From: Eubacteriales Family XIII. Incertae Sedis bacterium
GTDB taxonomy: Bacteria; Bacillota; Clostridia; Peptostreptococcales; Anaerovoracaceae
Reading direction: 5' to 3'
Length of the DNA: 39,803 nt
NCBI GenBank assembly: GCA_031260885.1
Contig: JAISKP010000213.1
Coordinates: forward strand, 1 to 39,803
This document shows, piece after piece, positions 24,132 through 27,296 of the stretch (positions within the stretch are counted from its first letter, which is position 1; each line of letters starts with the position of its first letter). The notes beneath the pieces were generated by a model. That model saw only the letters and a program-made list of their open reading frames with translations. It ran no database searches and was not told where the DNA came from. A program made the translations under genes and the position numbers.

Positions 24132-24329
24132 ATGGTAGACACATCCATCGGCTCCGCGTGCAACAGCGGCAATCGTACGCCGAAAGGCGAGGCGCGCCTT
24201 GTCATCGACGGCATTGAAATAGAAATGGTTCCCTTTGTCCGAAACATTCTGCGCAACGCAGTAACGGGCGTGGTCTGCGAGCTCGAGGGCTACCGTGAGG
24301 ATAGCCGGATTGAGGTTTTTATTGAATAG
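24132..24329 (+). CDS. Small protein resembling the C-terminal segment of some MobB proteins
   Basis: LVIDGIEIEMVPFVRNILRNAVTGVVCELEGYREDSRIEVFIE. Confidence 0.45.
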   Translation: MVDTSIGSACNSGNRTPKGEARLVIDGIEIEMVPFVRNILRNAVTGVVCELEGYREDSRIEVFIE

Positions 24330-24336
24330 AATTCTG

Positions 24337-24365
24337 TTGACCCATCTGCCTCGGAATGGTACTAT
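24337..24365 (+). promoter_or_regulatory. Sigma-A type promoter for the cbiM leader
   Basis: TTGACC (24337-24342), 17-nt spacer, TACTAT (24360-24365). Confidence 0.65.
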
Positions 24366-24371
24366 TATATC

Positions 24372-24482
24372 AATGAAGTCAAGAAGGCTTCGTCCGAAAA
24401 GAGTGTAATTAAGCAGCAATGGGTCGGTTTTCGGAAGGAAACGCCGGAACAGATCCCCTATAAAACCGATAATCTCGGGACG
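24372..24482 (+). ncRNA. Candidate aptamer/attenuator leader of cbiMQO, class unassigned
   Basis: TTCGTCC (24389-24395) pairs with GGACGAA (24478-24484); GTCGGTTTT (24423-24431) pairs with AAAACCGAT (24462-24470); competing TCGGG-ACGAA-CCCGA hairpin (24475-24489). Confidence 0.5.
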
Positions 24483-24529
24483 AACCCGAATGGAGGACCG
24501 GAAGGTCTGCCGTTGGGTTTTGTTTTTTG
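24483..24529 (+). terminator. Intrinsic terminator in the cbiM leader
   Basis: AACCCgAATGGagGACC-GGAA-GGTCtgCCGTTGGGTT followed by TTGTTTTTTG. Confidence 0.72.
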
Positions 24530-24546
24530 TAGGAAGGAATCATGTC

Positions 24547-25623
24547 ATGCATATCCCAGACAACTATCTCAGTCCCGAAACCTGTGTGGTTTTAGGTGCG
24601 GCGATGGTACCGGTTCTTGCGGTATCGGTCAAAAAAGTAAAGGAAGAGGTTTCGAAGGAGAAACTGCCGCTGCTCGGCGTCGGCGCGGCATTTTCATTTT
24701 TACTCATGATGTTCAACGTCCCGCTACCCGGCGGAACGACGGGGCATGCGGTCGGCGCGGTGCTTGTGGCCGTGCTGCTCGGACCGTATGCAGCGTGCCT
24801 GTCCGTGACGGTCGCACTCGCGATTCAGGCGCTGCTGTTCGGCGACGGCGGCGTACTTGCACTCGGTGCGAACTGTTTCAATATGGCGTTTGTGATGCCG
24901 TTTGTCGGATATGCCGTTTACAAATTGGTCAGCCGTATCTTCGGCGGCAGCGCTGCGGAGCCCAAGACCGGAAGTGAACTGTGCGCAGGAACGCAAAGAT
25001 CTGCCCGCATCTCGGGTCGATCCGGTGTTGGCAATGCGATCGGCGTCGCGACCGGTGCATATCTCGGACTCAACGTCGCTGCGCTTGTTGCCGCGATTGA
25101 GTTCGGTATTCAGCCGCTGCTCTTTACCGATGCGAACGGACTCGCACTGTACTGTCCCTATCCGCTTTCGATTTCCATTCCCGCAATGCTCATTCCGCAC
25201 CTGCTGCTCGCAGGCATCGTGGAAGCCGCATTCTCCGTCCTGATCTATTCGTTCATCCGAAACGTTTCACCGGGAACGCTCTATGAGGGCGAACAAAAAC
25301 GCACGAAGACCGTATACGCGCTTTTGGTCGTTCTGATTCTCTTCGTACCGCTCGGTTTGCTTGCAACCGGAACGGCATGGGGCGAATGGGGTGCCGATGA
25401 AATCGCGGAAGTCGTGAACGGCTCCGCCGCACTCGGCTATGTGCCGGACGGTATGGCAAACGGTTTCTCCTTCGACGCTTTCATGCCGGATTACGCAGTG
25501 CCGGGACTTGCCGACATCCCCGGATATATTCTGTCCGCCGTCTGCGGGACAGCGATCGCGGTCATTCTTTTCAGAATCCTTGCGAGCTTAAAAAAGGGAA
25601 AGAGAACAAACGCGCATGCATGA
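24547..25623 (+). CDS. cbiM: Cobalt/nickel ECF transporter CbiM with C-terminal PDGLE/CbiN-like region
   Basis: Canonical N-terminus MHIPDNYLSPETC; PGGTTGHAVG; C-terminal YVPDGMANGF...; RBS aggaagga; ORF track start at 24490 is too early. Confidence 0.93.
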   Translation: MHIPDNYLSPETCVVLGAAMVPVLAVSVKKVKEEVSKEKLPLLGVGAAFSFLLMMFNVPLPGGTTGHAVGAVLVAVLLGPYAACLSVTVALAIQALLFGDGGVLALGANCFNMAFVMPFVGYAVYKLVSRIFGGSAAEPKTGSELCAGTQRSARISGRSGVGNAIGVATGAYLGLNVAALVAAIEFGIQPLLFTDANGLALYCPYPLSISIPAMLIPHLLLAGIVEAAFSVLIYSFIRNVSPGTLYEGEQKRTKTVYALLVVLILFVPLGLLATGTAWGEWGADEIAEVVNGSAALGYVPDGMANGFSFDAFMPDYAVPGLADIPGYILSAVCGTAIAVILFRILASLKKGKRTNAHA

Positions 25624-26479
25624 GGCGGATCCGCATCCGTTCGAAAGAAGATCTGTCCCTGCGTGGCTGCTGTCGCGCGAGGACTATACGCCGGCAGCGG
25701 GGCGTGAGCGTTTTCTGGACAAGACGATTTTTTCCCTGCTCCGGCTCTCGGCGTTGATTCGTTCGCAGGACACGTACGGTGTCGCACGTTTTCACGTTGA
25801 CGAGATTTACGGTCTGCTTTTTACGATCGCGCTCATCGTATTTCTGTCCCTTTCACGCACCTTCACGTTTGTGTTGATCGTGCTTTCCTGCATTCTTGTG
25901 CGGCTGTGCTTTATTCGGATCGGTGCGCTGAAAAACATTCTTGCGGTCTGTCTCGCCGCCACGATCTTTTCTGCGCTCGTGTTGCTTCCCGCTGCGCTTT
26001 ATGGCAATACATACAGCATCATCATGATCCCGTCAAAGGTCTTCGCCTCCGTTGCGCTCGTCGGAATTTTTTCGCATACGTCGCGGTGGAACGACATCAC
26101 GGGCACGCTGCGTCTGATCCACGTACCGAACATCTTCATCTTTATTTTGGATATCACGATCAAATATCTCACGATGCTGAGCGATTTTGCACTCAGCATG
26201 TTCTATGCGATGAAACTTCGTTCCGTCGGAAGACCGGGCAGGAAAACAGGAAAAGGCGGCGGGACCGGCGCGCGGATTCCCCGTGCAGCGGTTTCAAATG
26301 TGGCAGGCAATATCTTTCTGCACTCCAGAGAACTGTCCGAAGAAATGTATTGTGCGATGGAATGCAGAGGATTTTCCGGCGCGTATCCGAGGACAGCGTT
26401 CTGGAAGTTCTCCGCTGCAGATGCGGTCTACGTGCTCGTAAATCTGGCATTGATCGCAGCATTTTTCTATTTGGGGTAG
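25616..26479 (+). CDS. cbiQ: ECF transporter T component CbiQ-like
   Basis: Multi-TM; FILDITIKYLTMLSDFALSMFYAMKLRSVGR; 8-bp overlap with cbiM. Confidence 0.85.
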   Translation: MHEADPHPFERRSVPAWLLSREDYTPAAGRERFLDKTIFSLLRLSALIRSQDTYGVARFHVDEIYGLLFTIALIVFLSLSRTFTFVLIVLSCILVRLCFIRIGALKNILAVCLAATIFSALVLLPAALYGNTYSIIMIPSKVFASVALVGIFSHTSRWNDITGTLRLIHVPNIFIFILDITIKYLTMLSDFALSMFYAMKLRSVGRPGRKTGKGGGTGARIPRAAVSNVAGNIFLHSRELSEEMYCAMECRGFSGAYPRTAFWKFSAADAVYVLVNLALIAAFFYLG

Positions 26480-26492
26480 GACAGGTGTGCGT

Positions 26493-27296
26493 ATGATCGA
26501 TCTGAATGGGATCAGCTACTACTATCAAGGCACGGATGAGTCTCTGTCAAGGCAGGCGCTTGACGACATCAACCTTACGATAAATTCCGGTGAATCCGTT
26601 TCATTGCTCGGGGCAAACGGCAGCGGCAAATCCACGTTGCTTAAGTTGCTCAGTGGGCTGATCTTCGCAGAGGAAGGTTCCTATGCATTTGACGGGGAAG
26701 CAATTACGAAAAAGGGATTGTCTGTCCCCGCGTTTTCGAAGCGTTTCCACCAACGTGTCGGATTCGTCTTTCAGAATTCGGACACACAGCTTTTCTGTGC
26801 GGATGTCTATGATGAGATCGCTTTTGGACCGAGGCAGATGAACCTCGGCGAAGAGGCTGTAAAGGAACGCGTGAGCGGCATCATGGAAACGATGGAACTC
26901 GACGGATTCGAACACAGACAACCCTATCACCTGAGCGGGGGCGAAAAGCGCAAGGTGGCGATCGCCTGCGTGCTTGCGATGAATCCCGAAGTCCTCATGT
27001 TGGATGAGCCGCTGAACGGTCTGGATCCCAGAACGCAGCGATGGCTCGCGGAACTCTTAGTGCGTCTGAATGAGGCCGGAAAGACCATCATCGTATCCAC
27101 GCATGATTTGGTTTTTGTTCACGAGATCTCAAAGAGAGCTGTTCTCTTTGGGGAAGATCACCGCATCGTGGCGGATCGGGTCACAGACGAACTGCTCGGC
27201 GATATGGCACTCTTAAAGGAAGTCAACCTCGTAGATAAGTATTACCACCACCATCCGGGAGAAGGTCATAACCACTTTCACGACCACCGCTACTGA
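26493..27296 (+). CDS. cbiO: Cobalt/nickel ECF transporter ATPase CbiO with His-rich C-terminus
   Basis: Walker A GANGSGKST, LSGGEKRKVAIA, Walker B VLMLDEP; tail YYHHHPGEGHNHFHDHRY. Confidence 0.92.
   Translation: MIDLNGISYYYQGTDESLSRQALDDINLTINSGESVSLLGANGSGKSTLLKLLSGLIFAEEGSYAFDGEAITKKGLSVPAFSKRFHQRVGFVFQNSDTQLFCADVYDEIAFGPRQMNLGEEAVKERVSGIMETMELDGFEHRQPYHLSGGEKRKVAIACVLAMNPEVLMLDEPLNGLDPRTQRWLAELLVRLNEAGKTIIVSTHDLVFVHEISKRAVLFGEDHRIVADRVTDELLGDMALLKEVNLVDKYYHHHPGEGHNHFHDHRY

Follow-up and report, generated by a model that had tools for sequence, protein, structure and literature searches.

The cbiMQO operon in the window, that is, the whole 39,803-nucleotide stretch of DNA analysed, is preceded by two similar small hairpins, HP1 and HP2, which share the loop type A-N-G-A-A and the second of which overlaps an intrinsic terminator. 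This element, undescribed until now, was found in many anaerobic bacteria, ahead of nickel/cobalt importers that are unrelated to one another. We propose that it is a protein-dependent antitermination switch for nickel and cobalt uptake, with the DUF3842 protein (PF12953) as the leading candidate binder, and we give this reading a probability of about 0.5.

A sequence-only reading had placed an attenuator outside the known classes before cbiMQO, and this part of it was supported: in the Rfam search that it had suggested, no family matched the window at gathering score, and the leader at E ≤ 10 gave chance matches only. It had also recognised no cobalamin-riboswitch sequences, rightly, as the RF00174 covariance model had no match in the window and did find a true copy elsewhere (L037). 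Its promoter, its hairpin TCGGG-ACGAA-CCCGA (here HP2, −6.3 kcal/mol), its terminator (−20.3 kcal/mol), and the ribosome-binding site followed by cbiM, cbiQ, and cbiO were all recovered by consensus scan, folding, sequence, or Pfam (Table 1). HP1, ATGAAGTC-AAGAA-GGCTTCGT (−7.5 kcal/mol), was absent from it and starts at the predicted transcription start. Bases 24483-24489, comprising the loop end and 3′ arm of HP2, are common to HP2 and the terminator, and the two are thus mutually exclusive, competing folds; on this competition the sequence-only reading was right. The cbiM start codon lies at 24547, and the protein begins MHIPDNYL.

Table 1. Features of the leader and the cbiMQO genes in the window
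Feature	Position	Strand	Basis
Promoter TTGACC-N17-TACTAT	24337..24365	+	Consensus scan
Hairpin HP1, 8-bp stem, loop AAGAA (24381-24385)	24373..24393	+	Fold, relatives, covariation, leave-one-out model match
Linker, variable and unconserved, holding the 9-bp stem of the sequence-only reading	24394..24474	+	Linker lengths in relatives
Hairpin HP2, candidate antiterminator, 5-bp stem, loop ACGAA (24480-24484)	24475..24489	+	Fold, relatives, model match
Intrinsic terminator, stem 24483-24519 then U-tract	24483..24529	+	Fold, overlap in relatives
Ribosome-binding site AGGAAGGA	24531..24538	+	Sequence
cbiM with PDGLE domain, Ni/Co ECF substrate component	24547..25623	+	Pfam PF01891, PF13190; NCBIfam NF005598 over cut-off
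cbiQ	25616..26479	+	Pfam PF02361
cbiO, ATPase with histidine-rich tail	26487..27296	+	Pfam PF00005; translation

Just upstream of cbiMQO, window positions 839-22648 encode a series of large, secreted proteins bearing dockerin-like ends together with GLUG repeats, followed by a MotA/ExbB-type protein, a DUF2149 protein, and a molybdopterin-domain-like lipoprotein. A 65-amino-acid open reading frame without Pfam match (24132-24326) lies between a phosphoesterase gene and the cbiM promoter.

The consensus scan found two promoter-like sites in the leader region versus 0.4 expected, and a pair of A-N-G-A-R hairpins with stems of at least 5 bp and at least 8 bp arose in 5 per 100,000 first-order random sequences of the leader's composition. 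The folding energy was unremarkable, with z=−1.5 for the whole leader and z=+0.2 once the terminator was left out; therefore, the case for the element rests on comparative evidence.

The leaders of 80 loci encoding relatives of the window's CbiM were read. By motif scan and by eye, the same arrangement preceded cbiM in 25 of the 80, mostly with both hairpins and in a few leaders with one hairpin degenerate or missing, and the loop-to-loop linker spanned 27-151 nt. To guard against circularity, every hairpin loop of 4 to 7 nt in the 80 leaders was enumerated without regard to sequence, and the commonest pentaloops were ACGAA (11 loci), ATGAA (10), and ACGAG (6), the next occurring at 2. Furthermore, a leave-one-out covariance model built from 11 relatives, the window excluded, matched positions 24374-24491 with 34 bits (E=3.7e-7), its sole significant match in the 39.8 kb. 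Bearers of the element include Clostridium, Acetobacterium, Caproiciproducens, Ruminiclostridium, Youngiibacter, and Flexilinea. One cbiM leader (L004, genome G034) carries three A-N-G-A-A hairpins instead of two, 88-155 nt upstream of the gene.

Two models were used, one GGG-type and one ACC-type; the aligner shifted HP2 when the types were combined. In the ACC-type alignment, 97% of cells paired and double changes occurred in 9 of 12 pairs versus 3.6 in shuffles, and covariation in the GGG-type alignment was weaker, yet above shuffles. When 82 hairpins were pooled, 157 double changes were counted versus 55 in shuffles, and 85.8% of cells paired versus 56.5%, a percentage that is inflated because some of the hairpins came from a scan requiring pairing; the signal was lost when the strands were slid by one base. 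The sequence-blind loop enumeration and the leave-one-out match are cleaner evidence than this pooled pairing. G-U pairs outnumbered A-C mismatches 51 to 13, indicating an RNA structure rather than a DNA palindrome, and this excess also speaks against HP1 being an operator in the DNA of the start site. Of 25 leaders with a U-tract, 18 passed a strict automatic test for pairing of HP2 bases with the terminator; several of the others failed it because an internal T-run had brought the test to a halt. In 23 of 26 leaders, both hairpins carry the same base at loop position 2. Recognition of the two loops by a single protein would be expected to give such agreement, to which shared ancestry contributes.

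The cbiM leaders without tandem hairpins often share a promoter block like TATCCCCC...GGGGCTTG, roughly 30-110 nt upstream of cbiM (L026-L039, L047, L050, L074, and others); this block resembles the DNA operators of CsoR/RcnR-type regulators.

Genome-wide model searches found targets beyond cbiM. Two clostridia carry the element before a HoxN/NicO nickel permease (L178 and L179; PF03824 at 3e-85 in L178), and elsewhere it precedes a DUF4198 protein adjoining cbiO (L148), a family of ECF substrate-binding proteins with the motif MHIPVLLCG, a methyltransferase with a NikB-type permease (one leader), CbiM variants, and NikA/NikB-like genes. The shared theme of these targets is nickel/cobalt uptake. 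Members of the ECF family (PF12822, MHIPVLLCG) were repeatedly found next to DUF3842 and downstream of the hairpin (L295, L301, L310, L311, L316, L317, L319, and L330); the family probably represents a component of nickel or cobalt importers that has so far gone unrecognised. In genome G164, two attenuators stand in tandem before an ECF-S gene (L240), and a further one with an AAGAA loop, as in the window, stands before cbiM (L265). In a DUF3842-bearing genome (G285, L271), an HP2-type hairpin with terminator was found before a radical SAM protein.

In the element neighbourhoods compared, DUF3842 was the sole recurrent non-transporter gene. It was present in 23 of 25 motif-bearing but only 8 of 49 motif-free cbiM genomes (Fisher p=2e-10) and in all 12 class-sample genomes with genuine element matches (p=2e-6), p-values that overstate independence because the species tested are related. 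The class sample as a whole, drawn evenly, carried it in 134 of 391 genomes (34%), and the models found the element in few of them; being narrow (GGG- and ACC-type), they underestimate its frequency. The 12 genomes exclude the window's and include two that also supplied training sequences; their matches were judged genuine on reading, by hairpin, terminator, and plausible downstream gene. Weak R1 matches (E above 0.002), mostly in coding sequence without a terminator, were dropped, as were the R2 matches in G286 and G333 (coding sequence, no terminator) and a dubious one in G393. In three class-sample genomes, including G393 with its dubious match, a model match lay 0.6-2.2 kb from the DUF3842 gene. 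Supportively, the top pentaloops in 60 DUF3842 neighbourhoods were ATGAA (13 loci) and ACGAA (8), apart from the reverse complement TTCAT, and A-Y-G-A-A hairpins with a U-tract were found at 13 loci in 488 kb of DUF3842 neighbourhoods versus none in a 312-kb control, the surroundings of motif-free cbiM genes.

Two similar A-N-G-A-A hairpins, the second competing with a terminator, are what an antiterminator bound by a protein typically looks like, and the element may work as follows. Transcripts would start at HP1, and by default the terminator would fold and transcription would end before cbiM. A trans-acting factor, for which DUF3842 is the leading candidate, would become active, most likely under nickel/cobalt shortage, a sensible signal because the regulated genes are importers, with nickel rather than cobalt as the probable metal. 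The active factor, probably a dimer, would bind the A-N-G-A-A loops of both hairpins and keep HP2 closed, so that the 3′ arm of HP2 could not join the terminator stem. HP2 being thus stabilised, polymerase would read through into cbiMQO (ON). Somewhat short of even odds, we would extend this to a general proposal: that DUF3842 proteins form a new family of antiterminators, which respond to metal, bind RNA, and read tandem A-N-G-A-A hairpins to control nickel (and cobalt) uptake in Clostridia and beyond, and that they constitute a nickel-homeostasis system distinct from both NikR and the NiCo riboswitch.

The tandem hairpins could instead be an antiterminator read by some other protein, with DUF3842 a nickel-handling protein of the same regulon. 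DUF3842 is a protein of about 140 amino acids with a predicted alternating alpha/beta, Rossmann-like fold (moderate confidence, pLDDT 76), in which no RNA-binding domain was recognised. No relative was found by sequence among solved structures, structure comparison returned only generic Rossmann-like folds, and an open-access literature search found no paper mentioning DUF3842. Its gene sits beside cbiMQO, an ECF-S gene, NikA-like genes, hypB, and larB/larE/larC, a set in which nickel themes predominate. One DUF3842 gene (L230) bears HP1 at its own 5′ end, as a target would; DUF3842 could be among the genes controlled, not the controlling factor. It was not found in four assemblies with motif-type hairpins, namely G009, G032, G064, and the window's own (G000; 79% complete, 224 contigs). 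Nevertheless, the near-complete co-occurrence exceeds what is expected of a single target gene, and no second recurrent non-transporter gene was found near the element; we therefore consider a different protein reader unlikely, if less so than the readings below.

Less probable still is a direct riboswitch, in which both loops would jointly bind a metal ion or small molecule. Two similar stem-loops joined by a variable linker recall the guanidine-II (mini-ykkC) riboswitch, whose loops are ACGR (PMC5486947), and the loops here often begin with A-C-G-A as well. However, guanidine-II has tetraloops that pair loop to loop, whereas the element has pentaloops whose position 2 varies (C, U, A, or G), precedes Ni/Co importers, and gave no Rfam match. 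Because position 2 varies, kissing of the guanidine-II style is impossible in several leaders, the window's included; there, HP1 has A at that position and HP2 has C. Moreover, stabilising HP2 would turn importers ON, the wrong direction for direct metal sensing, and the protein co-occurrence would be left unexplained.

The sequence-only reading's own mechanism, an OFF riboswitch built from a P1 helix, an antiterminator, and a terminator, has very little left in its favour. The 7-nt match between TTCGTCC (24389-24395) and GGACGAA (24478-24484) exists in the window and forms part of the minimum-energy structure predicted for the truncated leader, but across 25 other leaders the complementarity was no better than in shuffles, the match occupies the HP1 3′ arm and the HP2 loop, each conserved for another pairing, and the linker is unconserved; the conserved parts are the two small hairpins instead. 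Its 9-bp stem (GTCGGTTTT, 24423-24431, with AAAACCGAT, 24462-24470) is likewise present, but only in the window, and neither minimum-energy fold uses it.

NikR was found in fewer than half of the organisms with NikABCDE (PMC2667541), and how nickel uptake is controlled in NikR-less organisms is an open question, for which the element supplies a concrete RNA target, common to several unrelated kinds of Ni/Co importer, together with a single candidate regulator in DUF3842. If the proposal is true, bacterial antitermination would gain a new protein-RNA recognition pair and DUF3842 a function, and the element would also allow Ni/Co transporters to be annotated from their leaders.

Among known systems, the nearest in logic are the targets of ANTAR antiterminators (EutV, NasR, and AmiR). 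In these targets, two small hairpins have similar loops and the second one overlaps an intrinsic terminator (PMC3369931), an arrangement also found here; binding gives read-through, as we propose for the element. The ANTAR loop, however, is a hexaloop with A1 and G4, here a pentaloop with A1 and G3; the linker is 5-12 nt in Enterococcus faecalis eut, here 27-151 nt in relatives; and the targets are nitrogen genes, here Ni/Co uptake genes. An ANTAR protein as the reader was rejected as highly improbable, by loop type and by its absence from eight element-bearing genomes (G000, G032, G073, G075, G077, G078, G079, and G082), which include two clostridial genomes of more than 5 Mb.

The NiCo riboswitch (RF02683) likewise concerns Ni/Co homeostasis and acts on termination. 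The sequence-only reading had doubted a match, correctly, as the RF02683 covariance model found none here and did find a true copy in L040; the faint resemblance of AGCAG and GGGAC to segments of that class was unsupported, AGCAG sitting in the unconserved linker and GGGAC inside HP2. One genome (G061) carries a cbiMQO operon with tandem hairpins and, before the gene directly behind the operon, a true NiCo riboswitch; that gene encodes a CDF-type exporter by sequence (L040:5739-5828; L197:12835-14379). Because both occur at one locus, the NiCo riboswitch and the tandem-hairpin element are distinct. Finally, CsrA is a dimeric protein that bridges two loops of similar sequence, as in the mechanism proposed here, and it binds A-N-G-G-A in hairpin loops; CsrA sites thus carry GGA, whereas nearly all copies of the present element carry GAA.
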